64,000 nucleotides of DNA from Sediminibacterium sp. C3 (GTDB taxonomy: Bacteria; Bacteroidota; Bacteroidia; Chitinophagales; Chitinophagaceae). The stretch is taken from contig NZ_KI669560.1 in the NCBI RefSeq assembly GCF_000508085.1, positions 1,260,464 through 1,324,463 on the forward strand. Reading direction: 5' to 3'. The translations under genes and the position numbers were made by a program. The notes beneath the pieces are model-generated. The model ran no database searches, was not told the DNA's origin, and saw only the letters and a program-made list of their open reading frames with translations. This document shows positions 39,630 through 49,933 of this stretch, in pieces. The stretch's first letter is position 1. Each line of letters opens with the position of its first letter.

Positions 39630-40295
39630 ATGAAACAGATTGGTCGATTTTTTCAGAAAATGAATGTCAGAACCCTATACTTCAATTTTAAGTATCTACC
39701 CTTTAATCAGGCTATTAAATTGCCAATACTACTATCGAGTAATCTTTGTCTAAAAAAATGTTCTGGTCAGATTTATATAGATGCACCCGTTAAAACGGGT
39801 ATGATTCAAATAGGTTTTGGAGATGTTGGTTTATTTGATAAAAAGAAATCAAGAAGCATCTGGGAAGTTTCTGGAATTGTTCGATTTAAAGGAGAATGTC
39901 ATATTGGGCATGGAAGTAAAATTTCAGTTGGACCAAAAGGGAAATTAATCTTTGGAAAAAATTTTTTGATGACAGCAGAATCAACTATTGCTTGTTTCCA
40001 TCATGTGGAATTTGGCGATAATTCTTTGTTGTCCTGGGATATCTTAATAATGGACACAGATTATCATTCAATCATAGATGAATCAGGTAAGGTCGTAAAT
40101 CCTGATAAGCCAGTAATTATTGGCAGTAAGGTATGGATTGGCTGCAGATGTTTAATTCTAAAAGGAACAGTTATACCCAATAATTGTGTGATTGGGGCTA
40201 ATACAACCGTAACGGGTACCTTAGAAATTGAAAATGCATTATATGCAGGGAATCCTTGTAAACTCCTAAAACAAAATATAACTTGGAAACTATAA
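39630..40295 (+). CDS. Hexapeptide-repeat acyltransferase
   Basis: 221 residues. The first ~60 residues are basic and lack repeats; the beta-helix runs from about residue 80 (VRFKGECHIGHGSKISVGPKGKLIFGKN) to 205, with DTDYHSIID carrying the probable catalytic histidine and IGSKVWIGCRCLILKGTVIPNNCVIGANTTVTG as late repeats; YAGNPCKLLK closes the fold. It resembles serine/maltose-type O-acetyltransferases of polysaccharide loci. The stop lies 13 bases inside the dut frame. Confidence 0.82.
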   Translation: MKQIGRFFQKMNVRTLYFNFKYLPFNQAIKLPILLSSNLCLKKCSGQIYIDAPVKTGMIQIGFGDVGLFDKKKSRSIWEVSGIVRFKGECHIGHGSKISVGPKGKLIFGKNFLMTAESTIACFHHVEFGDNSLLSWDILIMDTDYHSIIDESGKVVNPDKPVIIGSKVWIGCRCLILKGTVIPNNCVIGANTTVTGTLEIENALYAGNPCKLLKQNITWKL

Positions 40296-40720
40296 AAATC
40301 ATCAATCAATCCAATAATCCCTTACCCGAATACGCTACTTTGGGTTCCTCGGGGATGGACATTCGCGCCTATATGGAAGAGCCGATGGTCTTACAGCCCT
40401 CTGCCCGTGTGTTGGTACCAACGGGTTTGTTTGTGGAGATTCCTTTGGGCTATGAAATTCAGATACGACCCAGAAGTGGACTGGCCATTAAGCAGGGCAT
40501 TACTTGTTTGAATACACCCGGCACGATTGATGCAGATTACAGGGGAGAAATCAAAGTGATTCTGATTAATCTTTCTTCGGAGCCGCAGACCCTAATGCCC
40601 GGCGACCGCATAGCACAAATGGTCTTGCAAAAAGTAGAGCAAATTCAATGGGTTCCTGCTACGGAATTAGCTGCCTCAGATAGAGGTACAGGAGGATTCG
40701 GCAGTACCGGGAAAATTTGA
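40283..40720 (+). CDS. dut: Deoxyuridine 5'-triphosphate nucleotidohydrolase (dUTPase)
   Basis: 145 residues, the usual length of a trimeric dUTPase, from a TTG start that overlaps the previous gene by 13 bases. The five motifs are visible: SGMDIRA, PRSGLAIKQG, NTPGTIDADYRGEIKVILIN (uracil pocket and catalytic Asp), GDRIAQMVL and RGTGGFGSTG (the C-terminal arm that closes over the phosphates). It hydrolyses dUTP to dUMP and pyrophosphate. Its overlap with the acyltransferase gene suggests read-through transcription from the glycan cluster. Confidence 0.95.
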   Translation: METIKIINQSNNPLPEYATLGSSGMDIRAYMEEPMVLQPSARVLVPTGLFVEIPLGYEIQIRPRSGLAIKQGITCLNTPGTIDADYRGEIKVILINLSSEPQTLMPGDRIAQMVLQKVEQIQWVPATELAASDRGTGGFGSTGKI

Positions 40721-40723
40721 TTT

Positions 40724-40800
40724 TTGAAGCATATTCAAATTCTCGTTAGCTAATTTTTGCGCAGCAAAAATTAAATGCCTCGAATTTATATATGCTTCAA
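40724..40800 (-). repeat. REP-like nested hairpin, copy 1
   Basis: Outer arms 40724-40742 and 40782-40800 pair at 17 of 19 positions. The 39-base core 40743-40781 contains an inner 9-bp stem (AATTTTTGC/GCAAAAATT) with a three-base loop. On the minus strand the core begins GAGGCATTTAA and ends TTAGCTAACGA, as in copy 2, with 36 of 39 positions identical. It lies between the convergent dut and TIM-barrel genes and may also end transcription. Confidence 0.7.
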
Positions 40801-40820
40801 AGCAAACTATTTCCTTGCTT

Positions 40821-40897
40821 AAAGGAGTGAGCGGAAATTTGGCATTTAAGATTTTCCGAAGGAAAAGATTGCAGCCGAATTTTCGCTCACCCTTTAA
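40821..40897 (+). repeat. REP-like nested hairpin, diverged copy 3
   Basis: Outer arms (40827-40843 with 40874-40890, extended by AAGG/CCTT) pair at about 15 of 17 positions. Inside are GGCATTTAA, then an inner stem TTTTCC-GAA-GGAAAA. It shares the GGCATTTAA flank and the GAA loop with copy 2, while both stems have a different sequence that is still self-complementary. It faces copy 1 as an inverted pair and covers the end of the TIM-barrel gene's downstream region. Confidence 0.55.
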
Positions 40898-40898
40898 A

Positions 40899-41759
40899 CT
40901 ATGAATACTTTTGTGAGCTTAAAAATTGGTGGCTTGATTTTAGGCTTTCGAAAATGTCCCCTTTGCTAATGTCCTGCTCCACAAACCAATGCTTCAAACC
41001 TGCTTTCTTGCGGGCAGCAAAGATCTTGGCAAAGTCAATAGTACCATTGCCCACTTCGGTAATTTCTCCTGCAGTAGACATATCTTTTACATGCCATAGC
41101 GGGAATCGGCCCGGGTACTTGTCAAAATACGCCAACGGATCCTTGCCGGCTTTATAAATCCAGTACAGGTCTAACTCCATCTTTACCAAATTGGCATCTG
41201 TTTTATTCAGCAAATGGTCATAAGCCAGTGTGTCTCCGAACTTTTCAAATTCAAACTCATGGTTATGATAAATAAACTGAATGCCTGATCCCTTGGTTAC
41301 TTCTCCGCAGCTATTTAATAAATCGGGTAATGCGGTATAAATTTCATTGGTTCTTTCATTGGGGAATAAGTAAGAACAGCCCATGTATTTCGCATCAATC
41401 GCTGCCAGATCATCCACGGTTTGTTTCCAATTGTCCTGTAAACTGCCCTTCATTTTCATGCCATACCCCGAAACATGGTGAGAGCTGATCACTTTCATGT
41501 CTGTATTGGCCAAAATGGTCTTGAACTCCTTGGGTGTTTTGCCAAAGAAAGTTCCGTTGTAGCCATATATTTCCAATTGGTTATAACCAATACTGCGCAG
41601 CTTTCTCAGCGTTCCTTCTAAATCTTTGGCAACGGCATCTCTTACCGAAAAGAGCTGCATGGCAAAGTTTTTGGGCTTTTTGGATTGAGCAAACACGTCG
41701 CCCAGGCCAACACTAAGCGCTCCAAGGGCAACAGACTGGATAAATTGACTTCTTTTCAT
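40899..41759 (-). CDS. Sugar phosphate isomerase/epimerase-like TIM-barrel protein, exported
   Basis: 286 residues. The N terminus MKRSQFIQSVALGALSVGLGDVFAQ is a signal peptide, with KRSQF recalling the 'KRRxF' Tat-like leaders of Bacteroidota secreted oxidoreductases but lacking the full twin-arginine. The mature part is an AP-endonuclease-2/xylose-isomerase-like TIM barrel with metal-binding residues in FIYHNHEFEFE, KMELDLYWIYKAG, LWHVKD and HWFVEQD. It probably acts in the periplasm on a sugar or cyclitol; the substrate is unknown. It is convergent with dut. Confidence 0.8.
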   Translation of the reverse strand: MKRSQFIQSVALGALSVGLGDVFAQSKKPKNFAMQLFSVRDAVAKDLEGTLRKLRSIGYNQLEIYGYNGTFFGKTPKEFKTILANTDMKVISSHHVSGYGMKMKGSLQDNWKQTVDDLAAIDAKYMGCSYLFPNERTNEIYTALPDLLNSCGEVTKGSGIQFIYHNHEFEFEKFGDTLAYDHLLNKTDANLVKMELDLYWIYKAGKDPLAYFDKYPGRFPLWHVKDMSTAGEITEVGNGTIDFAKIFAARKKAGLKHWFVEQDISKGDIFESLKSSHQFLSSQKYS

Positions 41760-41840
41760 GTCCTCAATTTAGTTAATTCTGTTCAAATATGGGGGCAGAC
41801 AATACATCGCAGCCCCAACTGGTTTTTTCAAAAAATGAAT

Positions 41841-42437
41841 TTATGATCTCGCAAATTTCATTAGTAAATCATATTCACCTTTATCTGCTTTCCTAATTGC
41901 CGTAAGATATTGTTCTCTAATATCCAAGTTATCCGAAAGATTTGCTCCACCCCAAGAAAATACAGATTGTTTGTAGATTTTTTCTATAACTAAATCTGCT
42001 ATCATACGGCTATGACGTCCGTTGCCATTTGGGAAGCAATGTATACTTACTATTCTATGTTTTATTCGTATTGCAACTTCATCGGGTTCATATATATTGT
42101 GTTCAACCCAATATTTGGCATCGTCTAATAATGTCCTTAATGCAATAGCAATTTCTTGTTTGTCTACACCTATGTTCTTATTTGTTTTTCTGAATTTACC
42201 AGCCCAACTCCAAACCCTACCGTACATTTTTCTATGGAGATCCTGAATAAATGATTCTGAAAGAATTTGTTCCAGTTTAAATTTTCTAGTCAAGCTCCAC
42301 TGTATTGCATCTTCTATGTTTTGTTGTTCAAACTCGTCTAATTCTTCTCTTGTAGAAATAGATTTTATCAATAGACCATCTTTCTCATCTTCGTCGAGTG
42401 GGGTTTGGCCATCATTGTATATCATATTTAGTCCCAT
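41841..42437 (-). CDS. Mobile mystery protein B: Fic-domain protein
   Basis: 198 residues. The Fic motif is complete (HCFPNGNGRHSR near residues 132-143, family HxFx[D/N]GNGRxxR), which predicts AMP- or other nucleotide transfer to a target protein. The upstream helix region LHRKMYGRVWSWAGKFRKTNKNIG is typical of the Doc/Fic core. I see no clear inhibitory S/TxxxE[G/N] helix within the chain. The pairing with an HTH protein whose gene overlaps by 10 bases is the 'mobile mystery A/B' arrangement, a toxin-antitoxin-like pair found scattered in bacterial genomes. Confidence 0.88.
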   Translation of the reverse strand: MGLNMIYNDGQTPLDEDEKDGLLIKSISTREELDEFEQQNIEDAIQWSLTRKFKLEQILSESFIQDLHRKMYGRVWSWAGKFRKTNKNIGVDKQEIAIALRTLLDDAKYWVEHNIYEPDEVAIRIKHRIVSIHCFPNGNGRHSRMIADLVIEKIYKQSVFSWGGANLSDNLDIREQYLTAIRKADKGEYDLLMKFARS

Positions 42438-42886
42438 AGAATTTTAGGTGTATTTTTAATAATTTCTGCTGCCCTTTCTTTTATTGCAGTTTCAATACGT
42501 TTTTTTGAATTTGCTTGATCTTCTAATTTCATAGAAGTGGAAGTTCGTAACACAATTTTTGTAGCGATTTCTAAAGCCTTCTTTTCAATCATTAGTTCCA
42601 GGCTTCCCTCGGTAGGAATAAATCCATAAACAAACTTCATATCCATAGCATTTGCGATTTCTTGCATTGCTTTTATTGTGATAGCACCTTCTTTTTCGCG
42701 TTTTTCTATATCCATAACAGCTTGTTTGGTAATGGATAGTTTTTTGCCTAATTGTTCCATAGACATGCCAATCCCAGTGCGAATTGTTTTAATCCAACCT
42801 AAAGAAGGCAATATAAAATGCTGTAAATCAGTAAATTTTGCCATTTTTTCATTCAGTTGCTGAAACTGAAGCTTTGTATTTTTCAT
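42428..42886 (-). CDS. Mobile mystery protein A: HTH (XRE-type) regulator
   Basis: 152 residues. A helix-turn-helix sits near residues 30-75 (LGWIKTIRTGIGMSMEQLGKKLSITKQAVMDIEKREKEGAITIKAMQEIANAMDMKF). The family phrase FVYGFIPTEGSLELMIEKKALEIA follows, with a charged helical tail. It precedes and overlaps the Fic gene, and probably represses the pair by binding the palindromes at 42920-42978; whether it also neutralises the Fic protein is not known from sequence. Confidence 0.88.
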   Translation of the reverse strand: MKNTKLQFQQLNEKMAKFTDLQHFILPSLGWIKTIRTGIGMSMEQLGKKLSITKQAVMDIEKREKEGAITIKAMQEIANAMDMKFVYGFIPTEGSLELMIEKKALEIATKIVLRTSTSMKLEDQANSKKRIETAIKERAAEIIKNTPKILWD

Positions 42887-42919
42887 AAAGTAAAGTTTAA
42901 GCTTGACTTATTCATTACA

Positions 42920-42978
42920 AAAGTAAATATATTACTTTACATAAACAAATAAAAAGTAAAGTCATGTATTTACTTTTT
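42920..42978. promoter_or_regulatory. Paired operator palindromes upstream of the mobile mystery A/B genes
   Basis: Two inverted repeats with the same half-site: AAAGTAA-N5-TTACTTT at 42920-42938, and a perfect 10-bp repeat AAAAAGTAAA-N8-TTTACTTTTT at 42951-42978. A single half-site AAAGTAAAG also lies against the start codon near 42888. Autoregulation by the HTH protein is the natural reading. Confidence 0.65.
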
Positions 42979-43059
42979 AAGCATTGTTAATTGCCAAATA
43001 AAAAGTGAATCTCGAATTATCATTAATTAAATAAAGTTTTTCTTAAATATCTTTAAATC

Positions 43060-43224
43060 ATGAAAGCTAAACAGTCATTGAAGTTGGGTAAAGTAGATCT
43101 GAATATCAAAACTGAAAACATTAGTCCTAAGGTTAAAAGCTTATCAGGCATTGTGAAATTGCCTAAAAACTTTGATGAGAAAAAGGAGTATCAGAATCAT
43201 TTAGAAAAAAAATACGGGGTATGA
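43060..43224 (+). pseudogene. DUF6364-like antitoxin remnant (54 residues)
   Basis: A short open frame from ATG 43060 to TGA 43224. Residues ~21-54 (ISPKVKSLSGIVKLPKNF, then DEKKEYQNHLEKKYGV) match my recollection of the C-terminal tail of DUF6364-type antitoxins, which normally bind a PIN-domain (VapC) toxin. The N-terminal ribbon-helix-helix expected in a ~90-residue antitoxin is missing and replaced by an unrelated basic 20 residues. No PIN gene follows. It may be a decayed module or a small orphan antitoxin. The family assignment is from memory of the motif and needs a profile search. Confidence 0.55.
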
Positions 43225-43275
43225 TTTGCTAATTCTTTTCAGTGATCTGTCAATTTTCACTTTAAAATTCAACAC

Positions 43276-43914
43276 TCACTTTTCTGTAATTTGAGCGATA
43301 GTTGAAGTAATTATTGGTAAGTTTAAGGTAAACCATTCTGGAAGTTCATTTATTGCAACAGAAGAAAAGCATTTCCCCTTTTTCATCACAGCTAATCCTA
43401 TATGTTCAATACCAGAAGTATCAAGAATTGTAACAGAATCAAAAATCTTAAAATACTGGTCTAATTTTTCTAGATTCCCATAAAAATTAGAAGATAAGGT
43501 AAAAGGGTCAACATAATGACCGCCTTCTTGAGCTCTTCCGATTACACGAGTTTCAGAAAGAGCAGTGTCCGTTAAACCAAAAAAAATTAGATGTATTTTA
43601 TATCCAGACTCCATAAACTTTTGAGGTATACTCCAAGTTGCATCATTCGTAAAGTGACCTTCATATGCAAAATCTTGATTGTATTCTAAAGCAGTATTGA
43701 CTAATTGGTCAAAGGTAGTTTCAACAAATTCTGCTGCAAGTTTTTTACACTCTTTGTGTGACTTTATGCCATTTACCCAAAACTCGCTTCTTTTCTTCAT
43801 AAAGAGTTTATCACCATCAAAAATCGAGCTTCTTAAATGAGTGGGAATATATTCAGGCCCTACAGATGATTTACCGGCACCATTAGAACCCGTTATGATG
43901 TAAAGAAGGGGCAT
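43276..43914 (-). CDS. Zeta-toxin-like P-loop ATPase
   Basis: 212 residues. Walker A is GSNGAGKSS at residues ~8-16, followed by FDGDKLF (zeta-type Asp in the substrate region), and EGHFTND and GRAQEGGHYVDPFTLSSNFYGNLEKL, which correspond to the Arg-rich lid and substrate region of zeta/UDP-GlcNAc-kinase-like proteins. Zeta toxins phosphorylate UDP-N-acetyl sugars and block cell-wall synthesis; whether this one does is unproven. The start is one base from the end of an 86-residue gene that may encode its partner. Confidence 0.8.
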   Translation of the reverse strand: MPLLYIITGSNGAGKSSVGPEYIPTHLRSSIFDGDKLFMKKRSEFWVNGIKSHKECKKLAAEFVETTFDQLVNTALEYNQDFAYEGHFTNDATWSIPQKFMESGYKIHLIFFGLTDTALSETRVIGRAQEGGHYVDPFTLSSNFYGNLEKLDQYFKIFDSVTILDTSGIEHIGLAVMKKGKCFSSVAINELPEWFTLNLPIITSTIAQITEK

Positions 43915-43915
43915 C

Positions 43916-44176
43916 TTACTTTACTTCTGAGAAGTGAAAACGTTTTCTTAAATGTGTGGCCTCTGTCTTTGATAATTCACGAACCACATCAATGTCTCTT
44001 GATGAATGAACAACAGTAATTAATTTAATACTGCCATTTGGGTATTCAAGGTAGCATTGGTTGGTGGATAATTCTTTTACGTTAATCATAAATGGAAGAC
44101 CACTTCTGAGTTTATGTTCACGAAGTTTTTTTACTGCATTGGTCCCTTTTTTACTAGCTATTTTAACTATAGACAT
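43916..44176 (-). CDS. Small protein upstream of the zeta-like ATPase, possible antitoxin
   Basis: 86 residues, basic N terminus (VKIASKKGTNAVKKLREHKLRSGLPFMI) followed by a beta-rich part (CYLEYPNGSIKLITVV) and a helical tail (VVRELSKTEATHLRKRFHF). It does not look like epsilon or PezA. The position one base upstream of a zeta-like ATPase in the same direction suggests it is the cognate regulator or antitoxin (inference). Confidence 0.6.
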   Translation of the reverse strand: MSIVKIASKKGTNAVKKLREHKLRSGLPFMINVKELSTNQCYLEYPNGSIKLITVVHSSRDIDVVRELSKTEATHLRKRFHFSEVK

Positions 44177-44350
44177 AACGCGAATTTACTATTAATTAGC
44201 CATTTTTTTGAGAAATAAATTGTCAAAGTAAACCTAATTATGAGTTGTTAGAAAGGTATATACACATTAAAATAAGTCTTTTGACATAAAAACCTTTAAA
44301 CCTGTCTAAAAGCCTTGTTTTTTGTGTTTCTGGAGGCTATTAAATTGGCT

Positions 44351-44358
44351 ATCTTTGC
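44351..44358 (+). promoter_or_regulatory. Candidate -7 box for the DUF4292-EnvC genes
   Basis: TATCTTTG matches the Bacteroidota -7 pattern TAnnTTTG, 118 bases upstream of the DUF4292 start. No well-spaced TTG (-33) is clear. If used, the nested hairpin at 44384-44454 lies in the 5' untranslated region of the transcript. Confidence 0.35.
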
Positions 44359-44383
44359 AGCCGCTTAATCCTTTTGGGGATGT

Positions 44384-44454
44384 TTGAATTTTAGTTTTGA
44401 GGCATTTAATTTTTGCGAAGCAAAAATTAGCTAACGAAAAACTGAAATTCAAAT
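44384..44454 (+). repeat. REP-like nested hairpin, copy 2
   Basis: Outer arms 44384-44399 and 44439-44454 pair at 15 of 16 positions. The 39-base core 44400-44438 starts GAGGCATTTAA, forms the inner stem AATTTTTGC-GAA-GCAAAAATT and ends TTAGCTAACGA. The core is 36/39 identical to copy 1 in the opposite orientation, but the arms have unrelated sequence. It ends 21 bases before the DUF4292 start codon. Confidence 0.7.
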
Positions 44455-44475
44455 ACCTCAAAGAAATTTAAATAC

Positions 44476-45303
44476 ATGAAATATTTAAAAATACTACTAC
44501 TAATCACTATCGCAGCCAGCTGTAAGACAGTGAAGAAAGTAGCCACCATCCAAGAAGCCATCGACAAAAAAGACACTACCCAAACCGTAGTCATCACCGA
44601 AACCCCCAAAGTAGACTCCGCCGCTATTGTCCGCAATATCATGGAGAAAGTGGTGACCAACAATATTCAGTTCAAGACCTTCAATGCCAAAATAAAAGTG
44701 GACTATGAAAGTGCAGAGAACAGTGATAGCTATACAGGATATTTAAGCATTGCCAAAGACTCATTGATTTATATCAGAATCCGCGGCTCATTCCTGGGCA
44801 TTTCTGCGGAGGGATTACAGGTAAAAATTACCAAAGACTCTGTGGTACTGGTGAAGAAAGTGGGAGAGAAATATGTACAATATCGCACCATCGATTACCT
44901 GAAGGAAGCTACTCAGATTCCCTTTGACTTTTCTACTTTACAAGACCTGTTGATTGGCAATCCCGTTTTCATGACCAACAATATTGTTTCCTACAGAGAT
45001 GGTCCTACTACTTTGTCGGTATTGATGGTGGGTGAAATTTTTAAACACCTGATTTCTCTTTCGAACGAAGACTTTAAAGTGGTGCACAGCAAGCTCGACG
45101 ACGTGGATATTCAGCGGAATCGTACTTGTGCCATCAGTTTCAGCAATTATCAGCCCATGGGAACGTATCAGTTTGCCACACAGCGTAAAATAGTGGTGGC
45201 TGAAAAGAGTAAACTCGATATCAACCTTGATTTTAAAGAGTTCTCCTTAAACGAACCGTTAAAATATGCTTTCGAAATTCCTAAAAATTACAAACGAAAG
45301 TAA
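44476..45303 (+). CDS. DUF4292 lipoprotein (LolA/LolB-like fold)
   Basis: 275 residues with a lipoprotein signal (MKYLKILLLITIAASCKTVKK, lipobox Cys near residue 16). The body has FKTFNAKIKVDYESAEN, SYTGYLSIAKDSLIYIRIRGSFLGISAEGLQV and LLIGNPVF, which are the hallmark phrases of DUF4292. This Bacteroidota family adopts a beta-clam fold related to LolB and is thought to help place lipoproteins in the outer membrane. The EnvC-type gene follows after 93 bases, a pairing common in this phylum. Confidence 0.85.
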   Translation: MKYLKILLLITIAASCKTVKKVATIQEAIDKKDTTQTVVITETPKVDSAAIVRNIMEKVVTNNIQFKTFNAKIKVDYESAENSDSYTGYLSIAKDSLIYIRIRGSFLGISAEGLQVKITKDSVVLVKKVGEKYVQYRTIDYLKEATQIPFDFSTLQDLLIGNPVFMTNNIVSYRDGPTTLSVLMVGEIFKHLISLSNEDFKVVHSKLDDVDIQRNRTCAISFSNYQPMGTYQFATQRKIVVAEKSKLDINLDFKEFSLNEPLKYAFEIPKNYKRK

Positions 45304-48657: not shown

Positions 48658-48993
48658 ATGAGACAAGCAATTATTAAATACAACGATGCTGAATGTGGTA
48701 CACTAAAAGAGTTGGATAATGGTGAATACGAATTTACCTACAGTGAAATGCATGTAAAAAATCATCCAGATTTATTTGTCAGTTTTACTATGCCTGTTCG
48801 CAAACAACCCTATGTAAGTAAGAGGTTGTTCCCTTTTTTTGATGGACTGATTCCTGAGGGTTGGTTGTTGAATATTGCATCAGAAAGTTGGAAAATTAAT
48901 AAGTTAGACCGCATGGGACTATTATTGGCCTGCTGTCAAAATACGATTGGTGCAGTGAGTGTTCATCCAATAAATGAATCAGTTGATGCGTAA
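48658..48993 (+). CDS. hipS: HipS-like protein: isolated HipA N-terminal subdomain
   Basis: 111 residues corresponding only to the N-subdomain-1 of HipA (AGTL-like phrase CGTLKELDNGEYEFTYSEMH, then SFTMPVRKQPYVSKRLFPFFDGLIPEGWLLNIASESWKI and ISLLACCQNTIGAVSVHP-like end). In the known HipBST system this piece is a separate protein that acts as the antitoxin of the kinase. It overlaps the kinase gene by 20 bases. Confidence 0.85.
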   Translation: MRQAIIKYNDAECGTLKELDNGEYEFTYSEMHVKNHPDLFVSFTMPVRKQPYVSKRLFPFFDGLIPEGWLLNIASESWKINKLDRMGLLLACCQNTIGAVSVHPINESVDA

Positions 48994-49933
48994 ATGTTTG
49001 TATTGTTATGCTGAATTAGAGGATACAGTAGTAGGCGATTATCATGCCGCCTGTAGTAAAAAATTTTACGGAATAGCTGTTGCGCCCAAGCTTCCATACC
49101 AATTAGATGAAATGGAAAAATTGGCAAAAGATATTGTTGATTTATCCATTACAGTTCCTGGGGTTCAGCCCAAATTGTCCTTGGGTTCATTAAAAGAGAA
49201 ATTGGAAAATGGTCAGGTAAATCGGTTGACCATTTTGAATGCGTTGGATGGTAGCTATATTTTAAAACCTCCGAATACATTGTATAGTGAAATGCCAGAG
49301 AATGAACATCTGTCGATGAAACTGGCGGAGCTATTTAAAATAACTGTTGTTCCTTCAAGCTTAATCAGACTGGCTTCTGGCGAATTGTGTTATATCACCA
49401 AACGAATTGATCGGAAAGCCAATGGTGCAAAAGTGCATATGATTGACTTTTTGCAAATATTTGAATTAGAAGATAAATACCTGGGAACAATGGAAATGCT
49501 GGGTAAAAAAATTGGCGAATTATCCGTGAATACTTTAATGGATAAACTACGCTTTTTTGAACTGGCTGTTTTCAATTTTATCATTGGAAACAACGATATG
49601 CACTTGAAAAACTTTTCTATGATTTTAAGTGAGTATGGGTGGACCTTATCTCCAGCTTATGATTTGATCAATGTTAAAATAATACTACCTAAAGATCAAG
49701 AGGATACTGCTTTAAAATTGGGCGGTAAAAAGAAGAATTTCAACAGAGGTTATTTTGATCGATTGGGGAAAGTGCTAGAACTGAATGATAAACAGATTGG
49801 ATCTGTTTATCAAAAATCACAAACCTGGTTGCCAGATGCTGTCCATTTAATTGAGCAATCATTTTTAGAGAAAGCTGCTAAGAAAGGATATATTGATTTG
49901 ATTGAGAAAAGGGTTTTAACCTTCGAAGTATGA
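48974..49933 (+). CDS. hipT: HipT-like Ser/Thr kinase toxin (HipA kinase core)
   Basis: 319 residues lacking the HipA N-subdomain. An N-terminal CLYCYAEL...YHAACSKKFYG segment (C-x2-C, H-x3-C) may bind zinc. The kinase core begins at VPGVQPKLSL (glycine-rich loop with phosphorylatable Ser), and has YILKPPN with the ATP-binding Lys, FNFIIGNNDMHLKNFSMI as the catalytic loop, and LSPAYDLINVKI as the Mg-binding Asp. HipT phosphorylates aminoacyl-tRNA synthetases in the studied case (TrpS); the target here is unknown. Confidence 0.87.
   Translation: MNQLMRKCLYCYAELEDTVVGDYHAACSKKFYGIAVAPKLPYQLDEMEKLAKDIVDLSITVPGVQPKLSLGSLKEKLENGQVNRLTILNALDGSYILKPPNTLYSEMPENEHLSMKLAELFKITVVPSSLIRLASGELCYITKRIDRKANGAKVHMIDFLQIFELEDKYLGTMEMLGKKIGELSVNTLMDKLRFFELAVFNFIIGNNDMHLKNFSMILSEYGWTLSPAYDLINVKIILPKDQEDTALKLGGKKKNFNRGYFDRLGKVLELNDKQIGSVYQKSQTWLPDAVHLIEQSFLEKAAKKGYIDLIEKRVLTFEV

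Follow-up and report, generated by a model that had tools for sequence, protein, structure and literature searches.

What are the hairpins that stand at both borders of a block of variable genes between dut and a DUF4292 gene in Sediminibacterium sp. C3, and what do they do there? In the window (the whole stretch of 64,000 nucleotides that was analysed), the dUTPase gene dut (40283..40720, +) and the DUF4292 lipoprotein gene (44476..45303, +) are the left and right flanking core genes of a variable cargo block (40899..44176, -). This block holds a sugar-isomerase-like gene (40899-41759), a Fic/DOC gene (41841-42437), an HTH gene (42428-42886), a zeta-toxin-like gene (43276-43914) and an 86-aa ORF (43916-44176). 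The Fic/DOC and HTH genes (41841-42886) and the zeta-toxin-like gene with the 86-aa ORF (43276-44176) form two probable toxin-antitoxin modules within the hairpin-bracketed block. Further along the window (48658-49933), two neighbouring ORFs resemble, by eye, the separated halves of a HipA-type kinase.

Hairpin w1 (type A; outer arms and core, 40723..40801) is read on the minus strand and begins 2 nt past the dut stop codon, with its core GAGGCATTTAATTTTTGCTGCGCAAAAATTAGCTAACGA at 40743..40781 (-). Hairpin w2 (type A; outer arms and core, 44372..44464, +; core GAGGCATTTAATTTTTGCGAAGCAAAAATTAGCTAACGA at 44399..44437, +) follows a promoter-like site and precedes the start codon of DUF4292, from which its 3' end is ~12 nt away. 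The site 5' of w2 is TATCTTTG (44350..44357, +), which we take to be a Bacteroidetes-type motif resembling the promoter -7 element; it precedes the hairpin on the DUF4292 side in each of the seven genomes carrying such hairpins, with one copy reading TATCTTCG. The type A core consists of GAGGCATTTAATTTTTGC, a TGC (w1) or GAA (w2) loop and GCAAAAATTAGCTAACGA. In the folded hairpin, a 10-bp inner stem is joined through an 8/8 internal loop (GAGGCATT/GCTAACGA) to an outer stem of at least 16 pairs.

The first-pass annotation had placed w1 and w2 correctly and had described a common 39-base core matching at 36/39 positions, which was borne out, the 3-base loop being the sole difference. Its claim that the arms are unrelated between the two copies and self-complementary within each also held: in the 16 nt adjoining the core, 14/16 (w1) and 15-16/16 (w2) positions were paired, and the arms covaried across species. 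The third, diverged member that it proposed is real (w3, 40823..40894, +, between w1 and the isomerase-like gene), its core GGCATTTAAGATTTTCC-GAA-GGAAAAGATTGCAGCC being of a second type, B; the GAA loop is present only in w2 and w3, however. It was also right that w1 and w3 form an inverted pair between convergent genes, but w1/w2 is the more telling inverted pair, since it brackets the variable gene block with a geometry repeated at other loci. Coding DNA aside, w1 and w2 are the most stable simple hairpins in the window, and a hairpin scan that tolerated mismatches, run on the window and a further 400 kb of this genome, ranked them first and joint fifth of 15.

We have then investigated whether changes in the arms are compensated. 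Among seven distinct type A copies, two-sided changes were found in 18 of the 26 pairs, with 97.8% of the cells paired, and the covariation score was 0.667 against 0.209 in shuffled alignments (0/500 shuffles). Sliding the partners by one column lowered the pairing to about 56%. Aligning types A and B together (11 sequences) gave 18 two-sided pairs with 69 such cells and a score of 0.730 vs. 0.206 when shuffled (0/500), and here the slide reduced pairing from 95.8% to about 55%. One-sided changes amounted to 3 cells in the A/B arms, as compared with the 69 two-sided ones. Eleven copies of a further type, C (see below), showed 25 two-sided pairs with 68 cells (0/500), the outer and inner stems behaving alike. 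In type C the internal loop is fixed and runs G.A, A.G, usually G-C, C-G, A.A or A.C, T.C, T.G and T.G; G.A/A.G was present in 10-11 of the 11 copies, and C-G and T.G in all of them. This strongly supported the earlier proposal of selection for structure: at orthologous sites the arms have changed on both sides and still pair, and the inner core is nearly constant. These alignments show a hairpin structure under constraint. Covariation further shows that constraint on sequence is limited to the internal motif, with both stems needing only to pair.

The exact type A core occurs twice in the 3.2-Mb genome of strain C3, so the family is not a high-copy repeat. Elsewhere the exact core was found in a few Sediminibacterium genomes, always at the same two sites. 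Exact-core and model searches together placed all type A and B cores in the interval from dut to DUF4292; the genomes concerned are seven of Sediminibacterium (G000, G011, G017, G037, G061, G066 and G076, with G037 being S. salmoneum NBRC 103935). In G076 both sites hold type B in place of type A, and in G061 the DUF4292 site does. Across 30 genomes of the genus, the A+B model gave no convincing match beyond dut/DUF4292, the weak ones being unrelated palindromes. In the Chitinophagaceae at large, a loose core pattern matched mostly coding DNA, apparently by chance. Viral contigs held no type A or C match, and their 70 matches to the short type B pattern were close to chance expectation; plasmids and phages gave no match. 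No Rfam 15 covariance model matched above its gathering score in the window or in the stretches L247 and L248, and a permissive Rfam search with the window copies and one copy from L287 returned chance-level matches only. A literature search yielded no description of such an element, the one useful paper being that on the REP framework (PMC3733652).

The dut/DUF4292 locus was compared across strains. In the seven carriers, an insert with hairpins at its flanks separates dut from DUF4292, and in the eight outgroup members of the genus inspected the two genes lie ~50-250 bp apart, with neither such a hairpin nor an insert. The cargo is a 284-aa protein in G011; in G061 and G076 this protein is accompanied by small toxin-antitoxin-like genes, and in G017 the insert is about 400 bp long. 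The hairpins themselves have also changed: S. salmoneum has lost the dut-side copy, the DUF4292-side copy of G076 is nested within the remains of an older hairpin, several orphan left halves of the hairpin are present in G011/G066, and the 39-nt cores are the only part shared by the two hairpins of G017.

Stretches totalling 1.26 Mb, window included, were taken from the own genome and searched for long stems with a GA...GA closure. The common fold, made of a long arm, a tandem G.A, G-C/C-G, a short mismatch and an inner stem, recurred at two further loci of this genome; the models found in it w1-w3, two type C hairpins and two radC hairpins. At the second locus, two type C hairpins surround an 802-aa TonB-receptor-like gene between the amidohydrolase and fumarase genes. 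Other carriers have type C copies in the same gap (110-112 nt over the compared stretch), as inverted pairs in 6 of the 7, G017 being without the amidohydrolase-side hairpin. The gap state was compared with outgroups here as at dut/DUF4292: in G021, G079 and G010 the amidohydrolase and fumarase genes are 60-90 bp apart and type C hairpins are absent. The third locus, radC/DUF3467 (names read from the protein sequences, not from a family search), was found with the type C model, which also picks up w1 in w1's own orientation. It has minus...plus pairs in G000, G017, G037 and G011, with 0.8-7.5 kb between the paired hairpins in these four carriers. The type C model also turned up relatives in genome G473, their cores reading GAGCCTTT...GCAGCGA; these include an inverted pair without cargo whose hairpins are separated by 112 bp. 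Further copies and compensatory arm changes were both obtained in the genome searches, at the same sites in relatives and at further loci.

Inverted minus/plus pairs are present at the dut, amidohydrolase/fumarase, radC and G473 loci, and orientation was inverted at every pair seen except for two tandem copies in G059. The comparison has shown, at three loci, inverted pairs with the 5' side inwards, standing just outside a stretch that is short or gene-filled depending on the strain. The cargo varies between strains at each of the three loci, and some pairs enclose little or nothing, as with the near-empty pair at amidohydrolase/fumarase in G066. We found no exchange of cargo between loci, and the spacers between hairpin pairs showed no significant similarity to each other. 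The TonB-receptor-like cargo (67% identical between L185:11860-14268 and L245:5665-8082) has opposite orientations relative to its flanks in G000 and G017. The G059 copies (G059:C61, L285, 3153-3376) are two family hairpins in the same orientation adjoining an amidohydrolase gene, in a genome where the dut/DUF4292 hairpins are absent.

Other palindromes were noticed during the scans. In G000:C4:2350000-2369999 (L219, 14950-16060), two opposed hairpins with GA...GA-closed loops (GAGGGCGTC...AAGACCGA; GAGCGTTGG...GTTGGA) lie directly 3' of a tRNA-Leu-like sequence and near DNA-methylase-like genes. A long imperfect hairpin with a GA..GA closure and no family core is found at L210:15621-15792 (GAAAGAACAAGGGGCGGAATAA...). 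The long near-perfect inverted repeats of G088 and G476 (L168, L170, L174, L176), with low-complexity arms (ATTTTGGAATTTTGG...), are a different kind of palindrome.

Our tentative preference is to regard w1-w3 as members of a low-copy nested-hairpin family of Sediminibacterium, acting as a REP-dimer/MITE-like structural DNA element that marks insertion-prone borders; we rank this above an RNA element. The members share a layout in which a long outer stem leads to a tandem G.A step and usually one to three G-C/C-G pairs; further in come a short, asymmetric mismatch, with ATTT facing GGCA or a variant of it, and finally the inner stem-loop. A single strand would fold as the hairpin, whose motif may be the binding site of a protein from the host or from a mobile element; such a protein would read the folded core, and the acting form may be DNA or RNA. 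The hairpin pair could then, as a unit, stall replication or act as a recombination substrate, which would leave local half-copies and make the interval between the hairpins a site of gain and loss of cargo such as toxin-antitoxin genes and outer-membrane receptors. Arm complementarity would be maintained by selection on the fold, possibly also by intrastrand template switching in which one arm is copied from the other.

This DNA-element reading is favoured by the joint presence of hairpins and insert in seven carriers and their joint absence from eight outgroups at dut/DUF4292, by the corresponding contrast between carriers and G021, G079 and G010 at amidohydrolase/fumarase, by the covariation and the fixed motif, by the radC/DUF3467 pairs and the strain-to-strain differences in cargo, and by the near-empty pairs (G066, G473), the orphan half hairpins and the nested hairpin of G076. 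The half copies and the inverted outer repeats of G066 (46 nt, 93%) show DNA-level duplication around the hairpins; in G473 the terminal inverted repeats measure 50 nt at 76%. As in MITEs, there are inverted ends (in G066) and a short non-coding empty form; unlike in MITEs, both ends form hairpins of their own, with arms differing from one end to the other, no target duplication was recognised and a parent transposase is not known. Against the DNA-element reading, inspection of the outer ends by eye revealed no target-site duplication, the outgroup gaps being too diverged to define an empty site, the element has no known dedicated recombinase and no cargo gene has shifted between loci. The arms at each site look vertically inherited and gradually compensated, so that any current mobility would be hypothetical, and one hairpin is missing at amidohydrolase/fumarase in G017 and at dut in S. 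salmoneum. Since single hairpins and cargo-free pairs (G473) exist, the family cannot be explained simply as the termini of a cargo element.

The strongest rival, which we hold to be somewhat unlikely, is a cis-acting RNA whose tandem-GA core would be a protein- or RNase III-binding motif in outward transcripts or in the DUF4292-envC mRNA, shielding the core genes against transcription out of the variable block or regulating DUF4292 translation. On the element strand, G.T oppositions outnumber A.C (85 vs. 28; 13 vs. 5 in the outer arms; counts include inherited copies), which points to folding of one of the two strands. This G.T preference is counted in favour of both readings, being compatible with RNA and single-stranded DNA equally, which limits its weight for the DNA-element reading. 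The compensatory evolution resembles that of structured RNAs, and w2, lying between the carrier-wide promoter-like motif and the DUF4292 start, would be transcribed in element orientation. At 5 of the 6 flank positions of the three loci, however, the flanking gene's own mRNA contains the reverse complement. One-sided wobble intermediates are nearly absent from the A/B arms (the 3 cells above), Rfam holds no relative, and the orphan halves and terminal inverted repeats favour DNA-level events.

We consider it rather unlikely that these nested hairpins, with their tandem-GA motif and interchangeable arms, are the structure-defined paired ends of an undescribed recombination/insertion system in which variable gene cassettes would enter and leave fixed chromosomal sites through a trans-acting enzyme that recognises the folded strand and not its sequence. 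The folded single strand, conserved unpaired positions, variable stems and cassette-like cargo including toxin-antitoxin genes recall integron attC sites, but the orientation is inverted instead of direct and the variable outer stem has no room for a fixed R-box pair at its base. Site-specific inversion between the w1 and w2 cores was considered and rejected because it would scramble the arms, which remain matched within each copy; mismatched arms were never seen.

Ordinary intrinsic (bidirectional) terminators that are long by chance are an improbable explanation. Most of the hairpins do lie ~5-30 nt past stop codons, in many cases where genes converge; some arms have a T-rich end (fumarase side of G066), and plain hairpins occupy this gap in the outgroups G079 and G021. 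Neither w1-w3 nor the G066 pair showed a terminator-like site (GC-rich stem plus T run), though, the window copies having no T tract; w2 lies within a 5' UTR, the G473 pair is preceded by a normal terminator (GCCCC..GGGGC-TTTTTT), and termination does not require the conserved internal mismatch motif.

The REP/BIME-type mobile palindrome suggested by the first-pass annotation stands as an analogy: these too are intergenic palindromes in inverted pairs, mostly just past stops here, at times with DNA inserted between dimer partners (PMC3733652). REP/BIME sequences are high-copy, 20-40 bp long, with conserved stems, a fixed tag at one end (GTAG and CGTC families) and, for the GTAG type, a linked RAYT gene (PMC3733652), whereas the present units number a handful per genome, measure 70-130 nt and have freely varying arms. 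Among 31 hairpins, CGTC was found in none and GTAG in 4, within the core or an arm and never as a shared end tag. The RAYT (TnpA_REP) gene looked for in the same genome was missing: Y1/RAYT proteins (PF01797) are absent from all 7 carriers, two of which are single-contig, and present in G010 and 5 of 14 control genomes. Mobilisation by a RAYT transposase was rejected on this ground and is highly improbable. The DUF4292/dut gap of G010 (G010:C1:141700-149700, L090) holds a CGTC-tagged repeat (CGTCATCCTGAGCG...GGGATGACG), with a Y1 transposase elsewhere (G010:C1:252884), which speaks for the REP idea; this copy contains CCTGA.GC..GC.GA.AGG, resembling the tandem-GA step of the present hairpins. 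Finally, a simple recent duplication of one hairpin or terminator sequence, with pairing by chance or inheritance, could explain two near-identical cores in one genome but is refuted by the lack of arm similarity between the copies, by the compensatory arm changes from species to species and by the loss of pairing upon the one-column slide.

These hairpins offer a clear example of compensatory evolution in low-copy hairpins outside Rfam and the REP framework. Bacterial genomes have gene-content hot spots, and what sets their borders is usually unknown; the borders described here carry a conserved structural element with arms that vary freely and yet match, which makes it testable whether structure alone, as DNA or RNA, defines them.
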